From Pseudomonadota bacterium (GTDB lineage Bacteria; Pseudomonadota; Alphaproteobacteria; Acetobacterales; Acetobacteraceae): a DNA stretch of 54,854 bases. The notes beneath the pieces were generated by a model, which saw only the letters and a list, made by a program, of their open reading frames with translations, was not told the DNA's origin and ran no database searches. The DNA lies in NCBI GenBank assembly GCA_021780035.1, contig JAJXZO010000082.1, forward strand, positions 1 to 54,854. The letters run 5' to 3'. Made by a program: the position numbers and the translations under genes. Below are positions 6,380 through 27,922 of the stretch, piece after piece; the first letter of the stretch is position 1, and each line of letters starts with the position of its first letter.

Positions 6380-8167
6380 ATGAGGGCATTGCGAACGATC
6401 GTCGTGGCATGCCTGCTGCTTGCGCTCACCGGCACCGCGCTGCCGGCGCGGGCTGGAGAGGTGCGCATCGCCGTGCTTGCCTTCCGGGGCACTGCGAGCG
6501 CGCTAGCGGAATTCGAGCCGACCCGGGCGTTCCTGCAGAAGTCCCTGCCGGGTATCGACGTGCGGCTTGAGCCGTTCGACCTCGCGGGACTGGTGAAGGC
6601 GGTCGCGGATAACCGCGTCGACTTCGTCATTACGAATCCTGGCCAGTATATCGAGCTCGAATCGCACTTCGGCGTCACCCGCATCGCCACGCTGGAAAGT
6701 CGCCAGGGCGGCGGGCTGACGGATTCGGTGGGCGCGACGGTCATCGCGCGCGCCGGGCCGGACGCGCCGAGGACGCTGCGCGATCTCCGCGGGCTGAAGC
6801 TCGCCGTGGCGTCGCGGCAGGCGTTCGGCGGCTGGCGCGTCGCCTGGCGGGAGATGGCGGACGCCGGCATGACGCCCGGCGAACTCGGCGGGTTGATCGA
6901 GACCGGGTTCCCGATGGAGCGCGTGATCCGCGCCGTGCTTGACGGCAAGGCCGGTGCCGGCGTGGTGCGCACCTGCCTCGTCGAGGAGGAGGAAGCCGCC
7001 GGGCGGCTGCGGCCGGGCGCGCTCGCCATCGTTGGCAGGAAGGCGGTGCCAGACTTTCCCTGCGCGCTTTCCTCGCGGCTGTATCCCGACTGGCCGTTCG
7101 CCAAGATGCGGCAGACATCGGCGGACCTCGCGAAGAAGGTGGCCGCGAGCCTGCTCGCCATGCCGGCGGCGGGCGGCCGCGACTGGACCGCGCCGCTCGA
7201 CTACACCTCCGTGCACGCGCTGTACCGGCAGCTGAAGATCGGCCCCTACGCCTACCTCGCGCAGCCGACGCTCGCCGGTCTGGTGCGCGCGCACTGGCAA
7301 TATCTGATGGCGGGCCTGCTGGTGGTCGGCTGGTGGATCATCCATGTGGCGCGGGTGGAGACGCTGGTGCGCCGCCGCACCGTGGAACTCGAATCCGAGA
7401 TGCAGGAGCGCGTCCGCGCGGAGGAGGAGGCGCGGACCACGCGGGAGCAGCGCGACCAGTTCTCCCGCCTCGGCATCATGGGGGAGATGGCGAGCAACAT
7501 CGCCCACGAACTGAACCAGCCGCTCGCCGCCATCGCCAACTACGCCGAGGGCATGACGCGCATGATCGATTCGGGGCGCGCCGATCCGGCGTTGCTGCGT
7601 GACGGCGCCCGAGGCGTGGCCGGGCAGGCGGAACGCGCTGCCGCCATCATCCAGCGCATTCGCTCCTTCGTGCGCCGGCGCGAGGCGAAGCGGGAGCGGG
7701 TGGACCCGAACGATATCGTGCGCGAGACGCTGGCGCTTTTCGAGGGTCTGGCCGCGAGCCGCGGCGTGCGGCTCTACGTGCATCTTTCCCCGGAAACGCC
7801 GGCCATCGTCGCCGACCGCGTCGAGATCCAGCAGGTGCTGTTGAACCTGTTGCAGAACGCCGTCGACGCCATGAGCGAGGGCGGGGCGATGGGACGCGAA
7901 GGCGGGATCACCGTGCGCACCTCGCGCGATGGTTTGGATGCCAGGTTCGCCGTGCGTGACGCCGGGCCGGGCCTGACGCCCGCGGTCGAGGCGCATCTGT
8001 TCGAGACGTTCTTCACCACCAAGGCGCAGGGCCTCGGGCTGGGGCTGTCCATCTGCCGCACGATCGTGGAAGGTCACGGCGGGCGGTTGTGGGCGACGCG
8101 GAACGCCGATGCCGGCCTGACGATGCGCTTCACCCTGCCGGGGGCGCAGCAGGAGAAGAAGGCGTGA
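6380..8167 (+). CDS. ttrS: Tetrathionate sensor histidine kinase TtrS
   Basis: Membrane sensor kinase expected to detect tetrathionate in the periplasm and phosphorylate TtrR. The 595-residue product has a cleavable or anchoring signal (residues 1-25), a periplasmic PhnD/phosphonate-binding-like domain (about 27-285; VDFVITNPGQYIELESHFG is typical of TtrS), a membrane helix at about 305-323, a coiled-coil linker rich in Glu/Arg (325-360), the HisKA motif NIAHELNQPLAAIANYAEG with His376, and a HATPase domain with NLLQNAVDAM and GLGLGLSICRTIVEGHGG. Two cysteines, Cys199 and Cys228, sit in the sensor domain. The stop overlaps the GTG of ttrR. Gene order ttrSRBCA strongly supports the assignment. 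Confidence 0.93.
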   Translation: MRALRTIVVACLLLALTGTALPARAGEVRIAVLAFRGTASALAEFEPTRAFLQKSLPGIDVRLEPFDLAGLVKAVADNRVDFVITNPGQYIELESHFGVTRIATLESRQGGGLTDSVGATVIARAGPDAPRTLRDLRGLKLAVASRQAFGGWRVAWREMADAGMTPGELGGLIETGFPMERVIRAVLDGKAGAGVVRTCLVEEEEAAGRLRPGALAIVGRKAVPDFPCALSSRLYPDWPFAKMRQTSADLAKKVAASLLAMPAAGGRDWTAPLDYTSVHALYRQLKIGPYAYLAQPTLAGLVRAHWQYLMAGLLVVGWWIIHVARVETLVRRRTVELESEMQERVRAEEEARTTREQRDQFSRLGIMGEMASNIAHELNQPLAAIANYAEGMTRMIDSGRADPALLRDGARGVAGQAERAAAIIQRIRSFVRRREAKRERVDPNDIVRETLALFEGLAASRGVRLYVHLSPETPAIVADRVEIQQVLLNLLQNAVDAMSEGGAMGREGGITVRTSRDGLDARFAVRDAGPGLTPAVEAHLFETFFTTKAQGLGLGLSICRTIVEGHGGRLWATRNADAGLTMRFTLPGAQQEKKA

Positions 8168-8820
8168 GCACAGCGGATCCGGCCGAAGCGCGGCCCCTTG
8201 TCCTGGTGGTGGACGACGACGAGGCGATGCGCCGCTCCTCGGCGTTCCTGTTCGCCTCCGTCGGCCTGGAGGCGCAAACCTTCGAGCGCGCCGACGCGCT
8301 GCTCGCCGCCTATCCCGGTGGCGACAGCGGCCGGCCCGGCTGCATCGTGCTCGACGTGCGCATGCCCGGGATGAGCGGCCTCGAGGTGCAGCGCGTGCTT
8401 GGCGAGCGCGATTGCCCGCTGCCGATCATCCTCGTCACCGGCCACGGCGACGTGCCGATGGCGGTGGCGGCGCTGAAGGCCGGCGCCTTCGACTTCATCG
8501 AGAAGCCGTTCAAGGAGCAGCACCTGCTCGACATCGTCGATGCCGCCATCCGCCGCTCGCGGGAGACGATCGCCGTTGCCGATGCCAGACGCGCGGTGGA
8601 GGCCCGCTTCGCCCGCCTCGGCAAGCGCGAGCGCGAGGTGCTGGAGCGGGTGCTGGAAGGCAAGCCGAACAAGGTGATCGCCTTCGAACTCGACCTGTCG
8701 ATCAAGACCATCGAGGTCTACCGCGCCTCGCTGATGGAGAAGATGGGTGCCCGCTCGCCCGCCGAACTGGCGCACCTCGTCGCCGGATACCGCGCGGCGG
8801 CGAAGACGCGGCCGGCTTAG
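8164..8820 (+). CDS. ttrR: Tetrathionate response regulator TtrR (FixJ/LuxR type)
   Basis: Two-component transcriptional activator expected to switch on ttrBCA. I take the GTG at 8164 as start because it overlaps the ttrS stop (GTGA) and gives an N-terminus directly ahead of the receiver domain LVLVVDDDEAMRRSS. The phospho-acceptor is Asp64 in CIVLDVRMPGMSG; the switch Lys is in FDFIEKPF. The C-terminal LuxR-type helix-turn-helix is LGKREREVLERVLEGKPNKV (about residues 152-171) followed by LDLSIKTIEVYRASLMEKMG. Length is 218 residues, normal for FixJ/NarL-like regulators. A short inverted repeat overlaps its stop codon. Confidence 0.93.
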   Translation: MSTADPAEARPLVLVVDDDEAMRRSSAFLFASVGLEAQTFERADALLAAYPGGDSGRPGCIVLDVRMPGMSGLEVQRVLGERDCPLPIILVTGHGDVPMAVAALKAGAFDFIEKPFKEQHLLDIVDAAIRRSRETIAVADARRAVEARFARLGKREREVLERVLEGKPNKVIAFELDLSIKTIEVYRASLMEKMGARSPAELAHLVAGYRAAAKTRPA

Positions 8821-8831
8821 GGTTTTCCCTA
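8818..8831. promoter_or_regulatory. Inverted repeat TAGGG-N4-CCCTA, candidate TtrR operator
   Basis: A 14-bp perfect inverted repeat with 5-bp arms and a TTTT centre. It begins on the TAG stop codon of ttrR and lies 80 bases upstream of the ttrB start. LuxR-type regulators bind such dyads, so it is a candidate activator site for ttrBCA. No second copy was seen near ttrS. Confidence 0.4.
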
Positions 8832-8910
8832 GCCGAAGCCGGGAAGGCCCCGGATGGAAGCAGCGCGGAGGTGCGACTAGCGTCGGGCGAAATGAACCCG
8901 TGAGGCGCGC

Positions 8911-9621
8911 ATGGACCGCAGGGATTTCTTCAAGGCCGTGGGGCGGATCGCCGCGGGGCCGCCCGCGGCCCTGGCGGCCGGAACCGCCAGGGCCGCGACC
9001 GGTTCCGCCCATCACTGGGCGATGGTGGTCGATATCCGCCAGTGCATCGGCTGCCAGGCGTGCACCATCGCCTGCATCATGGAAAATCGCCCCCCCGAGA
9101 ACGAATTCCGCACCATCGTCTCCACTTACGAGGTGGCGGAGGGCGGGCGCGTGGACAGCTACATGCTGCCCAGGCTGTGCAACCACTGCGACGATCCTCC
9201 CTGCGTGCCGGTCTGCCCGGTCGGCGCCACCTTCAAGGCTGCCGATGGCGAGGTGCTGATCGACGCGGACCGCTGCGTCGGCTGTGGCTACTGCGTGCAG
9301 GCGTGTCCCTACGACGCCCGTTTCCTGAACGCCGAGACCGGAACGGCCGACAAGTGCACGTTCTGCGCCCACCGGCTGGAGGCGGGCCTGCTGCCCGCCT
9401 GCGTGGAAACCTGCGTCGGCAACGCGCGCGTGTTCGGCGATCTCGCCGACCCGCACAGCGAGGTTTCGCGGATGCTCGCCGAGCATCAGGGTGAGGTGCG
9501 CGTTCTGAAGCCCGAGCAGAATACGCATCCGAACGTTTTTTACATCGGCCTGGACCCGCGCTTTCAGGGTCGTGTCGACGGCGCGCCGACGCTCTGGCGT
9601 CCGACGCCAGAGAGAGCGTGA
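8911..9621 (+). CDS. ttrB: Tetrathionate reductase iron-sulfur subunit TtrB
   Basis: Electron-transfer subunit that carries electrons from the quinol-oxidising membrane subunit TtrC to the catalytic TtrA. The 236-residue protein opens with a twin-arginine signal (MDRRDFFKAVGRIAAGPPAA), consistent with Tat export to the periplasm. Four cysteine clusters for 4Fe-4S centres are visible: CIGCQACTIAC, CNHCDDPPCVPVC, CVGCGYCVQAC and CTFCAHRLEAGLLPAC. It begins 90 bases after ttrR and is followed by ttrC after nine bases. Length and cluster spacing match the DmsB/NrfC/TtrB family; gene context picks TtrB. Confidence 0.94.
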   Translation: MDRRDFFKAVGRIAAGPPAALAAGTARAATGSAHHWAMVVDIRQCIGCQACTIACIMENRPPENEFRTIVSTYEVAEGGRVDSYMLPRLCNHCDDPPCVPVCPVGATFKAADGEVLIDADRCVGCGYCVQACPYDARFLNAETGTADKCTFCAHRLEAGLLPACVETCVGNARVFGDLADPHSEVSRMLAEHQGEVRVLKPEQNTHPNVFYIGLDPRFQGRVDGAPTLWRPTPERA

Positions 9622-20841: not shown

Positions 20842-21354
20842 TTACGGCGACGGCGTCGGCACGGCGAGCGGCTTGGCGAGGTACACCTGGGCATGCCCTG
20901 GCGGGAAATCCGGCAGCACGCCGAAGCGGCGGTAGCCGGATTTCTCGTAGAAGGCGGAGGCCTGGAAGTCGAACGCCTCCACCCGGGAGCCGAGGCAGTC
21001 GCGCGCCCGCGCCTCGTTCTCCGCCTCGGCCAGCAGCGCCGAGCCGAGCCTCTGCCCGCGCAGGGGGGCGGGGACGAACAGCATCTGCACGGAAAGCCAG
21101 CGGAACAGCGTGCAGCCCCAGAAGCCGCCCACCACGGCGCCGCCGTTGTCGCGCAGCGGAATGACCAGCGGTTCCGGCGCGGCGTGGCCTATCAGCGCGG
21201 CGGTTTCGGCGTCGAGCGCGCGGAAGATGGCCTCGAAGATACCCGGCTCGGCGCCGGTGTAGCGATGCGGGCCGCCGGCGACGGCGGGCGCTGCGGCCTT
21301 CTGCGTATCCTGGCGGTTCGCAATGGTGGCGTGCGGCACGCCTTCCCGTAGCAC
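20842..21354 (-). CDS. GNAT family N-acetyltransferase
   Basis: Acetyl-CoA-dependent N-acetyltransferase of unknown substrate. The conserved fold parts are visible: VVGGFWGCTLFRWLSVQMLF (strands 2-4), the acetyl-CoA loop VPAPLRGQRLGSALLAEAE, and the C-terminal FDFQASAFYEKSGYRRFG. The end DFPPGHAQVYLAKPL is common in small GNAT proteins. Start is uncertain: GTG at 21354 (used here, 170 residues) or GTG at 21339; the open frame continues upstream into the cupin gene and that part looks non-coding. Convergent with cydX, 27 bases apart. Confidence 0.78.
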   Translation of the reverse strand: MLREGVPHATIANRQDTQKAAAPAVAGGPHRYTGAEPGIFEAIFRALDAETAALIGHAAPEPLVIPLRDNGGAVVGGFWGCTLFRWLSVQMLFVPAPLRGQRLGSALLAEAENEARARDCLGSRVEAFDFQASAFYEKSGYRRFGVLPDFPPGHAQVYLAKPLAVPTPSP

Positions 21355-21389
21355 GAAGCCGGTAAAGGCCCGGCTAATGCGTGGAGGTT

Positions 21390-21872
21390 TCAGCGGCGGG
21401 AAAGTTCCGCGGGGCGATCCCCGTCGAGGAAGGCCGCAACGCTGGGCGTGGCGCGCAGGACGGCAAGCTCCTCGGCGTTCGGCAGCGACGGGCGGTCGCG
21501 GTTGCGGTTCACCATGCAGAGGAAGCCGAAGGCCGCGCCTTCCGTGGCGCGGAACTGGTGCCACGTCCAGGCCGGGATGGTGAGGAGGTCGAACGCCGCC
21601 ACCCGGTGAACGGCGGTGCCGAGCAGGCAGTGGCCGCGGCCACGCAGGATCATCACCGCGTGCGTATGCTCGTGGCGTTCCAGCGACGAGTGTCCGCCGG
21701 GTGCCATCTCGAAATAGCGAAGCTCGCAGCCGAGGGCGGCGTCGTCGAACAGCGCATGGCGGGAGATGGCGCGGAACGAGGCGCCCGGCTCCTCCTTGTA
21801 AAGCCGCGCCTCCACGCCCTCCCAGCGGAAGTCGCGGCAGCGGCGGAGCAGGTTTTCCGGGGTGGCGTTCAC
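21390..21872 (-). CDS. Cupin-domain protein, possible methylthioxylulose 5-phosphate sulfurylase
   Basis: Single-domain cupin of 160 residues, beginning at a GTG that overlaps the stop of the RuBisCO-like gene. The metal-binding motif 1 is visible as SSLERHEHTHAVMILRGRGH (about residues 64-83) with three histidines and a Glu, and motif 2 as FDLLTIPAWTWHQFRATEG. In Rhodospirillum rubrum a cupin encoded near a RuBisCO-like protein (Rru_A2000) removes methanethiol from 1-methylthioxylulose 5-phosphate to give 1-deoxyxylulose 5-phosphate. The arrangement and the cupin motifs here suggest the same role, but that is inference; it could serve another sugar phosphate route. Confidence 0.7.
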   Translation of the reverse strand: MNATPENLLRRCRDFRWEGVEARLYKEEPGASFRAISRHALFDDAALGCELRYFEMAPGGHSSLERHEHTHAVMILRGRGHCLLGTAVHRVAAFDLLTIPAWTWHQFRATEGAAFGFLCMVNRNRDRPSLPNAEELAVLRATPSVAAFLDGDRPAELSRR

Positions 21873-22969
21873 GGACGGAACTCCTCCAATGCGCGCTGGA
21901 AGGCGGCGGCCGCCTCGGGGATGCGCTCGCGCGCCTGCAGCAGGCTGCCGCCGATCAGCAGCATCACGTCGGGACCGAAGAAGTGCAGCAGTTCCGGCAC
22001 GCGGGCCAGTTCCATGCCGCCCGCCGGCGTGGGCAGGCAGGGGCGCAGTCCGTGCAGCGGGCTGGTGGCGCGCCCGGCGAGCGAGCGGCAGATGTCCCGC
22101 GAGAAGCCGAACCGGCCGCCGTAGTTGGCGAAGATCGCCGCATCCGCTCCCCACAGCCGGAGCAGCGTGCCGAACAGCAGGTCGGGCGTGATCAGCCCCG
22201 AGCCGCTCATCGAGGGATGCGCGAGCACCGCCATCTCCGGCCACTCGCGCGCGAGCGCCTGCAGCGTGGCGACGCCGGAAAGCATCGGCGCCAGCATCAC
22301 CGTGTCGATGCCGCAGTCGCGCGCGAGGCGAAGCTGGACTTGCATGCGTCCCCAATCGCCCGAAAGCATCGGTACGTAGCGGGTTGCCCGGCCGGTGACG
22401 GCGCGGGCCCGCTCCACGGCCCCGGCGATGGCGGGAACGCGGGTGGCGAAGGGCGCGGAGGGCTGGTCGGCGAGGTTGTGGTCGTCCTTGATGTAGTCGA
22501 GCCCGCCGAGCGCGAACTGGTGGGCGAGGCGGGCGAGTGCCGCCGCATCGAGCCCCTGCGGCTTCAGCGCCGTGGCCGAGAGCGGCCTTGCGGAAGCGCC
22601 CACGCGCGCCCGCAGGCCCGCGATGCCGTGGCGCGGGCCGCCGAAGCACGCGGCGAAAGTCTCGGGGATTTCCACGTCGATGAGGCTGATGCCCGGATGC
22701 ATGGAGGAATTGCCGAGCACGATGTTCAGCATCTGCCCGGCGTCGGTGCCCACGGTGGCGACGCCGAGGGCGATGCGTACGGTGAAGCCGTCGTCGCCGT
22801 CATCGACGATGCCGGCCACCTGGCCGACGACTTCGGCGAGCACATGCGGGGCGTCGATGGCGTCGAGCGGCATCTCCACGCTCTGTTCGACGGCGATGCC
22901 GCGCGCCCGCGCCTCGATCTCGGCGGCGGGGCAGCGCACACGATAGGTGGCGACAAAGCGCGCGGACAT
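21869..22969 (-). CDS. RuBisCO-like protein (form IV), possible methylthioribulose 1-phosphate isomerase
   Basis: A 366-residue member of the RuBisCO large-subunit superfamily. The ATG at 22969 follows AAGGAA and begins MSARFVATYRVRCPAAEIEA. The N-terminal domain (about 1-125) includes LGNSSMHPGISLIDVEIP; the barrel carries ATALKPQGL and GGLDYIKDDHNLADQ. In true RuBisCO the second motif is KDDE, where the Lys is carbamylated and the Glu binds Mg; here His replaces that Glu, so carboxylase activity is not expected. Motifs resemble the R. rubrum RuBisCO-like enzyme of the methylthioadenosine-isoprenoid shunt. It overlaps the cupin by four bases, which supports a shared pathway. A 3-oxo-isoapionate-phosphate enzyme is an alternative. 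Confidence 0.85.
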   Translation of the reverse strand: MSARFVATYRVRCPAAEIEARARGIAVEQSVEMPLDAIDAPHVLAEVVGQVAGIVDDGDDGFTVRIALGVATVGTDAGQMLNIVLGNSSMHPGISLIDVEIPETFAACFGGPRHGIAGLRARVGASARPLSATALKPQGLDAAALARLAHQFALGGLDYIKDDHNLADQPSAPFATRVPAIAGAVERARAVTGRATRYVPMLSGDWGRMQVQLRLARDCGIDTVMLAPMLSGVATLQALAREWPEMAVLAHPSMSGSGLITPDLLFGTLLRLWGADAAIFANYGGRFGFSRDICRSLAGRATSPLHGLRPCLPTPAGGMELARVPELLHFFGPDVMLLIGGSLLQARERIPEAAAAFQRALEEFRP

Positions 22970-23009: not shown

Positions 23010-23639
23010 TTAGCGCGGCGGGTGCGGCCCTGTCCATGCCTCACCCGATCGGGGCAGGGCTTCCCGGGTGTCGAAGTCGCGCAGCACCGAATCGTCCGCG
23101 ATGACGACGCGGCAGATGTCGTCCTCGTGGAGAGCGAGAAGGGCGCGGGCGCCGCGGTCACCCTGGAGGGAGAGGATCTCGGCGAAGAAGGCGCGGCCCC
23201 ACAGCACGGGGTTGCCCTGCTTTCCGGCGTGCACCGGCACGACGATGCGGCGTCCTGGCGCGGGGGCGTAGGCGTCGATCAGGCGGTCGAGGGTGCGTGT
23301 CGCGACGAGCGGCATGTCGCCCAGGCAGACGAGAACGGCATCGGCTTCGGCGGGGAGCGCGCGGATGCCGGCGGAGAGGCTCGCGGAAAGGCCGAGGGCG
23401 TAGTCAGGGGCCTCCACGAAGCGGAGCGGGCGCCCCGCGAGCGCCGCCCTGATTTCCGCCGCCCGCCAGCCCACGACCGCCAGCACCGGGCTTGCCCGCG
23501 AGCGCATCACGGCATCGGCCACGGCGGCGATCATCGGCACGCCTGAGGCATCCGGGTGCAGGAGCTTGTTCGCCGGGGCGGCGCGCGACGAGCGGCCGGC
23601 GGCCAGGATCAATGCCGCCACGCGCCGGGGCGTGTTCAC
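23010..23639 (-). CDS. MobA/MocA-like molybdenum cofactor nucleotidyltransferase
   Basis: NTP transferase, probably CTP:molybdopterin cytidylyltransferase (MocA-like), which makes the MCD form of the cofactor for xanthine dehydrogenase or CO dehydrogenase type enzymes. The GTG at 23639 gives VNTPRRVAALILAAGRSSR with the LAAGxSxR nucleotide signature and then NKLL. The catalytic metal region is VLVCLGDMPLVA, and GKQGNPVLWGRAFF matches MocA proteins. 209 residues. It follows the two xdhC half-genes by two bases, the usual maturation context. No molybdenum hydroxylase gene is in the window. Confidence 0.85.
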   Translation of the reverse strand: MNTPRRVAALILAAGRSSRAAPANKLLHPDASGVPMIAAVADAVMRSRASPVLAVVGWRAAEIRAALAGRPLRFVEAPDYALGLSASLSAGIRALPAEADAVLVCLGDMPLVATRTLDRLIDAYAPAPGRRIVVPVHAGKQGNPVLWGRAFFAEILSLQGDRGARALLALHEDDICRVVIADDSVLRDFDTREALPRSGEAWTGPHPPR

Positions 23640-23641
23640 GC

Positions 23642-24343
23642 CTATTCCGGCCGGGGTCGCCGGGCGAGCGGCGAGCCGCGCCACGCGGCGACGAGTTCCG
23701 CGGCGATGGACAGCGCGATCTCCGGCGCGGTGACGGCGCCGATGGCCAGCCCGGCGGGGCCGTGGATGCGCGCGAGCGTCATCGCGTCGTGGCCGAGGTC
23801 GGCGAGGCGCCGGAGCCTTTCGGCGTGGTTTTTGCGGCTGCCGAGGGCGCCGATGTAGAAAGCCTCGCTCCGGAGCGCGCGGTCGAGCGCGGGGTCGTCG
23901 AGTTTCGGATCGTGGCTGAGCGCCACCACCGCCGTCTGCCGGTCGGGCGCGAGGGCGTCGAACGCCTCGTCCGGCCACTCGACGCTGAGCGCGGCTTCGG
24001 GGAAGCGCTCGGCGGTGGCGAAGGCCTGGCGCGGATCGATGACCGTCACCGTGAAGCCCACCGCGGCCGCGACCGGCACCAGCACCTGGGCGATATGGAC
24101 GGCGCCGATCACGAACAGCCGCGGCGGCGGGGCGTGCACCTCCAGCAGCCAGATGCCGTCGGCGAGGGAGGCGGTGCGGCTCTGCTGCTGGTGGAGCGCG
24201 GCGACGGCGGCCTGGGCAAGCCCGTCGGTGGCGAAGGGGGCGGCCAGCAGGCGTTGCGCGCCGTCCGGCAGGCGGGTCGCCAGCACCGCCGGCTGGCGCT
24301 TCCGGCGCGCCGCCACCAGGGCCGCGAGAATTTCGGGCGTCAC
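23642..24343 (-). CDS. XdhC family protein, C-terminal (Rossmann) part
   Basis: The 233-residue product matches the C-terminal Rossmann-like half of XdhC/CoxF proteins, which bind and sulfurate the molybdenum cofactor for xanthine dehydrogenase-type enzymes. The nucleotide-binding region PPPRLFVIGAVHIAQVLVPV is around residue 72, and DDPALDRALRSEAFYIGALG followed by SRKNHAERLRRL is family-typical. The ATG at 24343 overlaps the stop of the N-terminal partner gene. In many organisms both halves are in one protein; here they are two genes. Confidence 0.86.
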   Translation of the reverse strand: MTPEILAALVAARRKRQPAVLATRLPDGAQRLLAAPFATDGLAQAAVAALHQQQSRTASLADGIWLLEVHAPPPRLFVIGAVHIAQVLVPVAAAVGFTVTVIDPRQAFATAERFPEAALSVEWPDEAFDALAPDRQTAVVALSHDPKLDDPALDRALRSEAFYIGALGSRKNHAERLRRLADLGHDAMTLARIHGPAGLAIGAVTAPEIALSIAAELVAAWRGSPLARRPRPE

Positions 24344-24666
24344 GCGAGCTTCTCCACGAACACCTCGATCTTTCCGCCACAGGCAAGCCCGGCGCCCCAG
24401 GCCTGATCGTCGCTTACGCCGAAAGCGAGAAGGCGTGGCTCGCCGCTGGCGATGACTTCCCCTGCCGCGCGCGCCACCGCGCCTTCGACGCAGCCGGCGC
24501 TGACCGAGCCGGCCATGCGGCCGCTCGCGCCGATCGCCATGCGGCTGCCGACCGGGCAGGGAGAACTGCCCCAGGTGGCGGTGACTACGGCAAGGGCAAT
24601 GGAATCGCCCTCCGCGAGCCAGGCGGCCGCGGTGGCGAGCACATCGGTGGCGTCGGTCGTGGGCAC
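24340..24666 (-). CDS. XdhC/CoxI family protein, N-terminal part
   Basis: A 108-residue protein equal to the XdhC_CoxI domain. The GTG at 24666 follows AGGGGGA and gives a start just before DVLATAAAWLAEGDSIALAV. The domain signature TATWGSSPCPVGSRMAI and SVSAGCVEGAV is present, with the Cys of SAGCVEG that is conserved in XdhC. It overlaps the XdhC C-terminal gene by four bases and the MocA-like gene follows, so the three form a cofactor-maturation operon. The upstream open frame to 24720 has no support. Confidence 0.84.
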   Translation of the reverse strand: MPTTDATDVLATAAAWLAEGDSIALAVVTATWGSSPCPVGSRMAIGASGRMAGSVSAGCVEGAVARAAGEVIASGEPRLLAFGVSDDQAWGAGLACGGKIEVFVEKLA

Positions 24667-24859
24667 GGTTCCCCCTTCGGCGGGTGGCGCGGACAACGCG
24701 CGCGCTCCGCCGGGCTGCACGACGGGAGAATCACCGATGCGGGACGGCAGCGCAACACCGCAAGGCGTTCGGGCGCTGGCGCGGCGGCGGCGGGCGGCCT
24801 AGATTTCGCGCGCTTTGCCGGCCGGCCGGCCGGCCGCATTGCACCAGGGAGTTATCTGC

Positions 24860-25539: not shown

Positions 25540-26316
25540 ATGGTCAATCTTCTCAAGCAGCGCTGGGCGTCCGGGAAAGCGGCGGTGAACGCCTGGCTCG
25601 CCATTCCGTCGAGCTTTTCGGCGGAAGTGATCGCCCGCTGCGGCTTCGATTCCGTCACCGTCGATGTCCAGCACGGCGTGCAGGACTACATGTCGATGGT
25701 GCAGTGCTTCCAGGCGATGGGTGCCCATCCGGTGACGCCGCTGGTGCGCGTGCCCTGGCTCGAGCCCGGCATCGTCGGCAAAGTGCTGGACGCCGGCGCC
25801 CAGGGGGTGATCTGCCCGATGGTGAACACGCCGGAGGCCGCCGAGGCGCTGGTGCAGTACGCGAAGTATCCGCCGCGCGGCGCGCGTTCCAACGGGCCGA
25901 TCCGCATCACCATGTACGGCGAGGCTTCCGACTATCAGAAGACCGCCAACGACGACACGCTGGTGATCCCGATGATCGAGACGCAGCAGGCGGTGCAGAA
26001 CCTGGATGCGATCCTCGACGTGAAGGGCCTGGCCGGCGTCTATATCGGCCCGGCGGACCTTGCCTTCTCCTACGGGAAGACGCCGAAGCTCGACCACGAG
26101 GACCAGTTCTTCTTCGACATCTATGCGAAGATCATCGCCGCGTGCAGCAAGCGCGGCCTCTATGCCGGCATCCACACCGGCCGGGGCGCCTACGCCGCGC
26201 GCATGATCAAGATGGGCTTCCGCCTCACCACCATCGCCAACGACAGCGGGCTGATGGCGATGGCGGCGAAGGCCGAGATCGCCGACGCGCGCAAGAACTC
26301 CGACGGGATCGCTTGA
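25540..26316 (+). CDS. HpcH/HpaI-type class II pyruvate aldolase
   Basis: Metal-dependent aldolase that cleaves a 4-hydroxy-2-oxoacid to pyruvate (or a homologue) and an aldehyde. The residues known from E. coli HpaI line up by position: His45 (VDVQHGVQDY), Arg70 (VRVPW), Glu147 (IPMIETQQA) and Asp173 (IGPADLAFS). 258 residues. The ATG at 25540 follows AGGAGAGGG. Followed 82 bases later by a UxaA-type dehydratase, it probably cleaves the 2-keto-3-deoxy product of that enzyme; the exact sugar acid is unknown. Confidence 0.92.
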   Translation: MVNLLKQRWASGKAAVNAWLAIPSSFSAEVIARCGFDSVTVDVQHGVQDYMSMVQCFQAMGAHPVTPLVRVPWLEPGIVGKVLDAGAQGVICPMVNTPEAAEALVQYAKYPPRGARSNGPIRITMYGEASDYQKTANDDTLVIPMIETQQAVQNLDAILDVKGLAGVYIGPADLAFSYGKTPKLDHEDQFFFDIYAKIIAACSKRGLYAGIHTGRGAYAARMIKMGFRLTTIANDSGLMAMAAKAEIADARKNSDGIA

Positions 26317-26398
26317 TCCGTCACCTCGCTCTGTGCTTCTGACTGGATGGGCCGGGCATTCTGTCCGGCCCATCGGCGTTTCCGGGAGAGACCCCTAC

Positions 26399-27922
26399 AT
26401 GGCACCACCCAGCGTGCTCCGCCTGCATCCTGATGACGGCATCGTCATCGCCCGCGTTGCGCTGCCCGAAGGCACGGCGATCGCCGATGGCGTCGTGACG
26501 AAAAGCCGCATCCCGGCCGGGCACAAGGTTGCGATCCGCGCCCACGCGGTGGGCGAGGCGGTGCGGCGCTACGGCCAGATCATCGGCTTCGCCACCCAGC
26601 CGATCGCCGCGGGCGAGCACGTGCACGTGCAGAACCTGGCGGTGGGCGAGTTCTCCCGCGACTACGCCTGGGGCGTCGATGCGCGGCCTACCGCGTTCGT
26701 GCCCGCGCCGGCGAGCTTCGAGGGCATCCGCCGCGCCGACGGGCGAGTGGCGACGCGCAACTACATCGGCGTGCTGACCAGCGTGAACTGCTCCGCCTAC
26801 GCGGCGCAACTGGTGGCCGACGCCTTCCGCCGCAGCCCGTTCCTGCGCGACGATCCGCTCGCCGACTTCCCGAACGTCGACGGCGTGGTGGCGCTCACCC
26901 ACAAGACCGGCTGCGGCATGACCTTCGGCGAGCCGATGGCGCTGCTGCGCCGTACGCTGGGCGGCTATGCGCGGCACCCGAACTTCGCCGCCGTCATCAT
27001 GCTCGGCCTCGGCTGCGAGATGAACCAGGTCGGCGGTCTGCTGAACGACCAGAACCTCGCCGGGAAGATCCGCACGCTCGCCATCCAGGACCTGGGCGGC
27101 ACGCGCAAGGCGGCCGAGGCGGGGATCGCCCTGGTGCGCGAATCGCTGGCCGACGCCAACCGCGTGAAGCGCGAGACGGTGCCGGCGAGCGAACTCGTCG
27201 TCGGCCTGCAATGCGGCGCCTCGGACGGATATTCGGGCGTTTCCGCCAACCCGGCGCTGGGGGCGGCGAGCGACCTCGTGGTGCGGCACGGCGGCACCGT
27301 CATCCTCTCGGAGACGCCGGAGACCTACGGTGCCGAGCACCTGCTGACGCGCCGCGCCGTGAGCCGCGAGGTGGGCGAAAAGCTCGTGTCGCTGATCCGC
27401 TGGTGGGAGGAATACACCGCCCGCGAAGGGGCCGAGATCGACGCCAACCCGAGCCCGGGCAACAAGGCGGGCGGGCTTACCACCATCCTGGAGAAGTCGC
27501 TCGGCGCGCTGGTGAAGGCGGGCAGCACCAATCTGGTGGACGTACTGCGCTACGCCGACACGGTGACGCAGAAGGGCCTCGTGTTCATGGACACGCCCGG
27601 ATACGACCCGGTTTCCGCCACCGGGCAGGTGGCGGGCGGCGCCAACCTCGTGTGCTTCACCACCGGGCGCGGCTCGGTCTACGGCTGCAAGCCGACGCCG
27701 TCCATGAAGCTCGCCTCCAACACGGCGATGTTCCAGCACATGCAGGACGACATGGACGTCAACTGCGGCACCATCCTCGACGGCGAGGAGACGCTGGAGC
27801 AGTGCGGCGAGCGCATCTTCCGGGCGATGCTGCGGGTGGCGAGCGGCGAGAAGACGAAATCCGAACTTCTCGGCGTCGGCGACGCCGAGTTCGCCCCCTG
27901 GGTGCAAGGCGCCGTGATGTGA
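26399..27922 (+). CDS. UxaA/GarD family dehydratase (altronate dehydratase-like)
   Basis: Dehydrates a sugar acid to the 2-keto-3-deoxy acid. The 507-residue product starts at ATG 26399, after GGGAGAG, with an SAF domain (about residues 1-95, SVLRLHPDDGIVIARVALPE) followed by the catalytic UxaA region: GVLTSVNCSAYAAQLVADAF, the cysteine motif THKTGCGMTFGEP, and NPSPGNKAGGLTTILEKSLG. Cys-containing stretches near the C-terminus (GRGSVYGCKPTPSMK) are also typical. Both domains in one polypeptide is the usual altronate/galactarate dehydratase layout. Substrate is not fixed by sequence; altronate is only the best-known family example. Confidence 0.88.
   Translation: MAPPSVLRLHPDDGIVIARVALPEGTAIADGVVTKSRIPAGHKVAIRAHAVGEAVRRYGQIIGFATQPIAAGEHVHVQNLAVGEFSRDYAWGVDARPTAFVPAPASFEGIRRADGRVATRNYIGVLTSVNCSAYAAQLVADAFRRSPFLRDDPLADFPNVDGVVALTHKTGCGMTFGEPMALLRRTLGGYARHPNFAAVIMLGLGCEMNQVGGLLNDQNLAGKIRTLAIQDLGGTRKAAEAGIALVRESLADANRVKRETVPASELVVGLQCGASDGYSGVSANPALGAASDLVVRHGGTVILSETPETYGAEHLLTRRAVSREVGEKLVSLIRWWEEYTAREGAEIDANPSPGNKAGGLTTILEKSLGALVKAGSTNLVDVLRYADTVTQKGLVFMDTPGYDPVSATGQVAGGANLVCFTTGRGSVYGCKPTPSMKLASNTAMFQHMQDDMDVNCGTILDGEETLEQCGERIFRAMLRVASGEKTKSELLGVGDAEFAPWVQGAVM

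Follow-up and report, generated by a model that had tools for sequence, protein, structure and literature searches.

The closest described systems to the gene pair considered here are those of Rhodospirillum rubrum and Rhodopseudomonas palustris. In both bacteria, according to the parts of three papers that deal with them (PMC5893883, PMC4958253, PMC4334135), a RuBisCO-like protein (RLP) of the DeepYkr type converts 5-(methylthio)ribulose 1-phosphate into 1-(methylthio)xylulose 5-phosphate and 1-(methylthio)ribulose 5-phosphate in a 3:1 ratio, and a cupin, with glutathione, yields 1-deoxyxylulose 5-phosphate. For R. palustris, the relevant part of one of these papers describes both the isomerase activity of RLP1 and the role of the cupin as demonstrated, and gives these biochemically proven proteins as 53% and 56% identical to those of R. 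rubrum (PMC5893883). An R. palustris strain without rlp1 and ald2 grows poorly when methylthioadenosine is the only sulphur source (PMC5893883). The mtnA and mtnP genes of R. rubrum are given, in the section that names them, as Rru_A0360 and Rru_A0361 (PMC4958253).

The DNA that we analyzed, from here on the window, is a stretch of 54,854 nucleotides (contig C208) from an Acetobacteraceae genome assembled into 253 contigs (2.67 Mb in total), with 90.03% completeness and 2.52% contamination. On its minus strand, the window carries an RLP gene (21869..22969, 366 aa, with the ATG start codon at 22969 and the stop codon TGA at 21871-21869), immediately followed by the gene of a single-domain cupin (21390..21872, minus strand, 160 aa, with a GTG start at 21872). 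Stop and start overlap by four bases, GTGA (21869..21872, minus strand), and the RLP has the motif KDDH at residues 161-164. The coordinates, the four-base overlap and the motif had all been given in the original prediction, made from the window by itself, and they were exact when we read the window again. Such an overlap suggests that the two genes are translationally coupled. The R. palustris genes for RLP1 (RPA2169) and its cupin (RPA2170) are likewise consecutive loci, whereas the R. rubrum genes are 934 bp apart.

How general is this arrangement? We scanned the genome_contigs database and kept the best 80 of 340 relatives, with flanks of up to 8 kb and often shorter (three of the loci, L036-L038, are the same as L025-L027; they are counted within the 80, 76 and 87 given in this text, and entered once in the tree). 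The cupin is directly downstream of the RLP in 75 of these 80 best loci, and in all 8 of the relatives' loci that we examined. Five loci have no cupin right next to the RLP: in L093, L056 and L084 there are 712, 293 and 45 bp of sequence left, respectively, in L086 a cupin lies about 1.4 kb beyond the RLP, and the fifth is L047. The RLP of L047 (around 8001-9089) belongs to the cupin-linked clade, and we found no cupin within 8 kb on each side of it. Among the 76 loci with a cupin on the same strand, using start codons picked by a script, RLP and cupin genes overlap or abut in 26, 12 of them with an overlap of exactly four bases. In R. rubrum, whose RLP gene is not one of the 80 best loci, the RLP and the cupin are separated by an oppositely oriented open frame of 124 aa (L142, 7069-7443); because the pair is adjacent in most related loci, this frame is perhaps a later insertion.

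The RLP matches the Pfam family RuBisCO_large (PF00016) with 90.1 bits against a cut-off of 30.1. Its best PDB match is 3qfw (7.4e-107, with the runner-up at 8.7e-34), an entry titled "Rubisco-like protein from Rhodopseudomonas palustris", which is presumably RLP1, given that 2qyg is the entry titled rlp2. Six NCBIfam models match the RLP, and none passes its cut-off; among them, PRK09549 scores 160.3 of 409 bits, MtnW 113.6 of 513.6 and OiaX 67.8 of 700. The R. rubrum RLP behaves likewise (153.4, 108.6 and 61.6 bits, respectively). The window RLP and the R. rubrum RLP are 54.4% identical, and the active-site columns of the window protein are common to both in the alignment. A structure model of the RLP (mean pLDDT 84.1) has 3qfw as its best structural match as well (Z 45.0, rmsd 2.2, 349 aligned residues), with the next entry at 40.5.

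The KDDH motif occupies the position of KDDE in the one MtnW and the one OiaX-like protein that we aligned, and of KNDE in the RuBisCO compared, which we take to be a form II enzyme. Among the 80 genome_contigs loci, which were partly picked by the KDDH pattern, 79 have KDDH and one has KEDH. The R. rubrum RLP (picked via its cupin), 3qfw and every one of the 8 rows of an alignment of relatives (A1) have the motif as well, and none of these was chosen with the KDDH pattern. From these alignments, KDDH is the normal state for this RLP clade, and not a peculiarity of the window gene.

A tree of 49 rows (IQ-TREE, LG+C20+F+G4) groups the window RLP, the R. rubrum RLP and 3qfw in one clade, which counts 33 rows and has 100/100 support. 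Also in it are seven relatives, 18 loci that we picked by hand from the genome_contigs set of 80, four Rhodospira family genomes, and one plasmid-borne relative. Outside of it are one MtnW, an OiaX-like group, the RuBisCOs that we included, and the transketolase-linked RLPs. L032 and L035 (G003), which carry fragments of a disrupted RLP at the ends of contigs, were left out of the tree. Within the clade the window RLP groups with its own genus at 100/100, and most deep branches are poorly supported. The original prediction had asked for such a phylogeny; in ours the window RLP falls with the R. rubrum enzyme and apart from the MtnW and OiaX-like proteins included. (The prediction had also listed OiaC for comparison; to our knowledge OiaC is not a RuBisCO homologue and has no place in an RLP tree.) Thus, the window RLP is very probably, as judged from its relatives, a 5-(methylthio)ribulose-1-phosphate 1,3-isomerase of the DeepYkr type.

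The cupin matches the Pfam family Cupin_2 (PF07883) with 46.0 bits against a cut-off of 27.2, and its three top PDB matches are 3jzv, which is Rru_A2000 (2.5e-54), 3kgz (8e-44) and 3ibm (1.5e-31). A structure model of it has a mean pLDDT of 76.8. For neither the RLP nor the cupin could the best PDB match plausibly arise by chance. We aligned 87 cupins, including three duplicates: His67, His69 and His71 occur in all rows, and His105 and Cys119 in 86, the remaining row having a gap; the R. rubrum cupin has all five residues. The conserved cysteine, Cys119, is reported to be catalytic in the R. rubrum cupin. The window cupin, a homologue of Rru_A2000 by these matches, is a probable 1-(methylthio)xylulose-5-phosphate methylsulfurylase. 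At 56.6% identity for the cupin, and with the value given above for the RLP, the window proteins are as close to those of R. rubrum as the proven R. palustris pair is.

The original prediction had remarked that mtnP and mtnA, which act upstream of the RLP, are absent from the window. Both are present elsewhere in the same genome and above their curated cut-offs: mtnP at C118:946-1662 (311.2 bits, cut-off 274.85) and mtnA at C85:18423-19400 (406.2 bits, cut-off 279). They sit on separate contigs, neither of them near the RLP-cupin pair, unlike the consecutive mtnA and mtnP loci of R. rubrum. (One stretch of the R. rubrum genome that we chose by guess had no mtnP or mtnA match.) An O-acetylhomoserine sulfhydrylase is found at C161:12401-13663 (583.4 bits, cut-off 495.1). 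The genome also has dxs (C147:12996-14858, over its curated cut-off), so the shunt would add to the usual supply of 1-deoxyxylulose 5-phosphate and not take its place. A full classical methionine salvage pathway, named in the prediction as a competing possibility, is not seen in this roughly 90% complete genome: there is no match to the MtnD family (ARD, PF03079), and the sole match to Aldolase_II is a 3-oxo-tetronate 4-phosphate decarboxylase, OtnC (282.1 bits, cut-off 250), which reaches 60.0 of 137.05 bits against the mtnB model, so that no candidates for MtnB or Ald2 appear among the Aldolase_II matches. Because the assembly is in many contigs and about 90% complete, the absence of MtnB, MtnD and Ald2 is suggestive only. 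Ald2 and a second RLP, which R. palustris also possesses, are not seen in the genome of the window, at that completeness.

A search of 60 genomes, own genome included, finds RLP matches in 20, of which 9 are at least 50% identical and 11 at most 34%. All 9 genomes with the closer RLP belong to the same family as the window, and mtnA is present in every one of them (9/9, with 36 genomes of the family searched). We observe that within the family MtnD exceeds its cut-off in only 1 of the 9 genomes with the RLP versus 21 of the 27 without it (Fisher p 0.0007, a value that ignores shared ancestry when 6 of the 9 genomes are from one genus). Comparing the 9 genomes to all 51 others, p is 0.14. The genus itself is not uniform: G005 carries the RLP together with an MtnD-family match above the cut-off (80.1 bits), G004 has one under the cut-off (23.1 bits), and G006 has mtnA and no RLP match.

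The neighborhood of the pair varies as well. In four of six same-genus genomes (G001, G002, G004 and G005), a single open frame just upstream of the RLP, ending 21-57 bp from it, fuses a CoA-binding domain (PF13380) with an O-acetylhomoserine sulfhydrylase (525-2333 in L025, with matching frames in L026, L027 and L028). The domains were confirmed in G002, the one fusion checked, at 602.4 bits for a cut-off of 495.1. The fusion is not present in the window, nor at the locus of G003, where mocA and the RLP are 490 bp apart, too close for it to fit between them. The C161 sulfhydrylase and the fused one share 48% identity, and the C161 stretch that was read has no CoA-binding match. According to the parts of two papers that cover this step, the R. 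rubrum pathway uses an enzyme of the fusion's type to convert methanethiol to methionine (PMC5893883, PMC4958253). Downstream of the cupin, the window has a GNAT acetyltransferase gene (20842..21360, minus strand), with a relative likewise downstream in G002 and G003. Further away, at 25540-27922, an HpcH/HpaI-type aldolase adjoins a protein of the galactarate/altronate dehydratase family (415.5 of 730.85 bits, under the cut-off); by their family matches, these are probably genes of a sugar-acid pathway.

Directly 5′ of the RLP, on the same strand, the window shows at 23010-24720 a mocA-like gene and an xdhC split into two genes. The first is a MocA-like molybdenum cofactor cytidylyltransferase (23010..23633, minus strand), separated from the RLP by 40 bp and scoring 130.1 bits, less than its cut-off of 186.45; the other two, also part of the genomic context, encode a protein with the C-terminal (Rossmann) domain of XdhC (23642..24343, minus strand) and one with the XdhC/CoxI N-terminal domain (24340..24720, minus strand).

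Putting these observations together, we are highly confident, by analogy, that the RLP-cupin pair encodes the enzymes of a methylthioadenosine-isoprenoid shunt of the R. rubrum kind, as the original prediction had proposed; the clade of the RLP, the match of the cupin to Rru_A2000, the presence of mtnP and mtnA, and the conserved adjacency all argue for it. The likeness to the R. rubrum shunt (Rru_A1998, Rru_A2000) extends to the RLP clade, the KDDH motif, an identity of 54-57% for both proteins, and the two upstream genes. All the reactions, the role of the metal and the flux are modeled on the proven enzymes of R. rubrum and R. palustris. MtnP and MtnA, whose genes are on other contigs, would convert methylthioadenosine to 5-(methylthio)ribulose 1-phosphate, which the RLP, with a metal probably held at the KDDH site, would isomerize (1,3-isomerization) to 1-(methylthio)xylulose 5-phosphate. 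The cupin would then, with glutathione, strip the methylthio group to give 1-deoxyxylulose 5-phosphate for isoprenoids and, ultimately, methanethiol, which an O-acetylhomoserine sulfhydrylase would turn into methionine.

Could the RLP belong to another branch of the superfamily? It could be an MtnW-type enolase or an OiaX-like decarboxylase, with the cupin as an unrelated neighbor or an MtnD-like dioxygenase. The RLP does share the RuBisCO-like fold with MtnW, of the Bacillus-type methionine salvage, and the RuBisCO superfamily with OiaX, the 3-oxo-isoapionate-4-phosphate decarboxylase, and it matches both models weakly. However, its scores are far below both cut-offs, the MtnW and the OiaX-like proteins compared have KDDE and not KDDH, and both fall outside of the 33-row clade (the OiaX-like protein is itself under the OiaX cut-off, with 473.4 of 700 bits). 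MtnB, needed upstream of MtnW, is not seen in the roughly 90% complete genome, and a dioxygenase role for the cupin goes against its match to Rru_A2000 and the lack of an ARD family match in this genome. Altogether, we regard this possibility as extremely unlikely; model scores and tree rule out MtnW, OiaX and RuBisCO as identities for the RLP. The other question is whether the pair takes part in molybdenum-enzyme maturation, with a role next to xdhC and mocA. The mocA-like gene is on the same strand and close to the RLP, and a relative of it is also upstream in G001, G002 and G003, but the sulfhydrylase fusion separates the two in G001 and G002. Moreover, none of the 77 other genome_contigs loci (that is, L036-L038 aside) has a match to xdhC or mocA at E 1e-8 in flanks of at most 8 kb, which makes such a role unlikely, to the point that we give it hardly any weight. 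The mocA-like gene is context of the RLP, and not a step of the pathway.

A subtler alternative concerns the substrate. The pair could mainly serve another sugar phosphate such as 5-deoxyribulose 1-phosphate, derived from 5′-deoxyadenosine, which the RLP would convert to 1-deoxyxylulose 5-phosphate without any need for the cupin. Upstream enzymes could be shared, as the kinase DrdK of Bacillus thuringiensis accepts both 5-methylthioribose and 5-deoxyribose, in the part of the paper that describes it (PMC6079011), and an Ald2-like aldolase is not among the genes seen in this genome. On the other hand, a substrate without a methylthio group needs no cupin, and yet nearly all loci retain one right after the RLP; we also found no published RLP with 5-deoxyribulose 1-phosphate as substrate in the open PMC literature. 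We consider it very unlikely that this is the main function. That the RLPs of the clade take both substrates, with the cupin required for methylthioribulose 1-phosphate and with 5-deoxyribulose 1-phosphate leading directly to 1-deoxyxylulose 5-phosphate, is a less remote proposal, and one that we still think improbable. If it were true, methylthioadenosine and the waste of radical-SAM enzymes would both feed isoprenoid synthesis, in a genome where other known enzymes for either intermediate were not seen.

Next to the cupin-linked clade there are operons with an RLP and no cupin. As an example, we observe the order mtnK, mtnA, transketolase N-terminal half, transketolase C-terminal half, and RLP in the record annotation of six Rhizobiaceae and Devosiaceae plasmids (L154, 5691-11122, from the same record as L126; L127, L149, L150, L151 and L152). 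These are 6 of the 12 records that we opened out of 363 with a match, and a sugar ABC transporter ATPase gene is beside the operon in the 5 plasmids with enough flank shown. Of the remaining six records, one has an RLP and a cupin, one an OiaX-like gene, one mtnW, one has no annotation, and two have the transketolase pair and an RLP with no mtn genes within the stretch shown. These two are plasmids of Vibrio nigripulchritudo (L130, 2001-5104) and Ponticoccus alexandrii (L131, 1971-5047), in which the RLP comes after a transketolase/thiamine enzyme encoded by two genes; mtnK and mtnA are absent from the stretch shown, which includes an FGGY kinase in Vibrio and a molybdopterin oxidoreductase in Ponticoccus; the motif is KEDH in the Ponticoccus RLP, and the Vibrio RLP does not match the motif pattern. 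The RLPs of the operons with mtnK and mtnA have KDDH in both cases checked, and they branch outside of the cupin-linked clade yet next to it. The C-terminal half of the transketolase scores 200 bits for the transketolase model and 176 bits for dxs, both under the cut-off. Perhaps a thiamine enzyme replaces the cupin there, cleaving the RLP product to glyceraldehyde 3-phosphate and a methylthio-acyl or acetyl unit. We found nothing in the open PMC literature on RLPs with transketolase or with 5-deoxyribose. These operons are more unusual than the window pair, and there may be something new in them.

The RLP-cupin pair of the window very probably belongs to an already known and biochemically solved kind, and as such the finding itself is ordinary. 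What it would add is an Acetobacteraceae genus to the carriers of the oxygen-independent methionine salvage route. The genus also contributes context for the last step, in the sulfhydrylase with a fused CoA-binding domain that adjoins the RLP, and these bacteria would be candidate sources of methanethiol.
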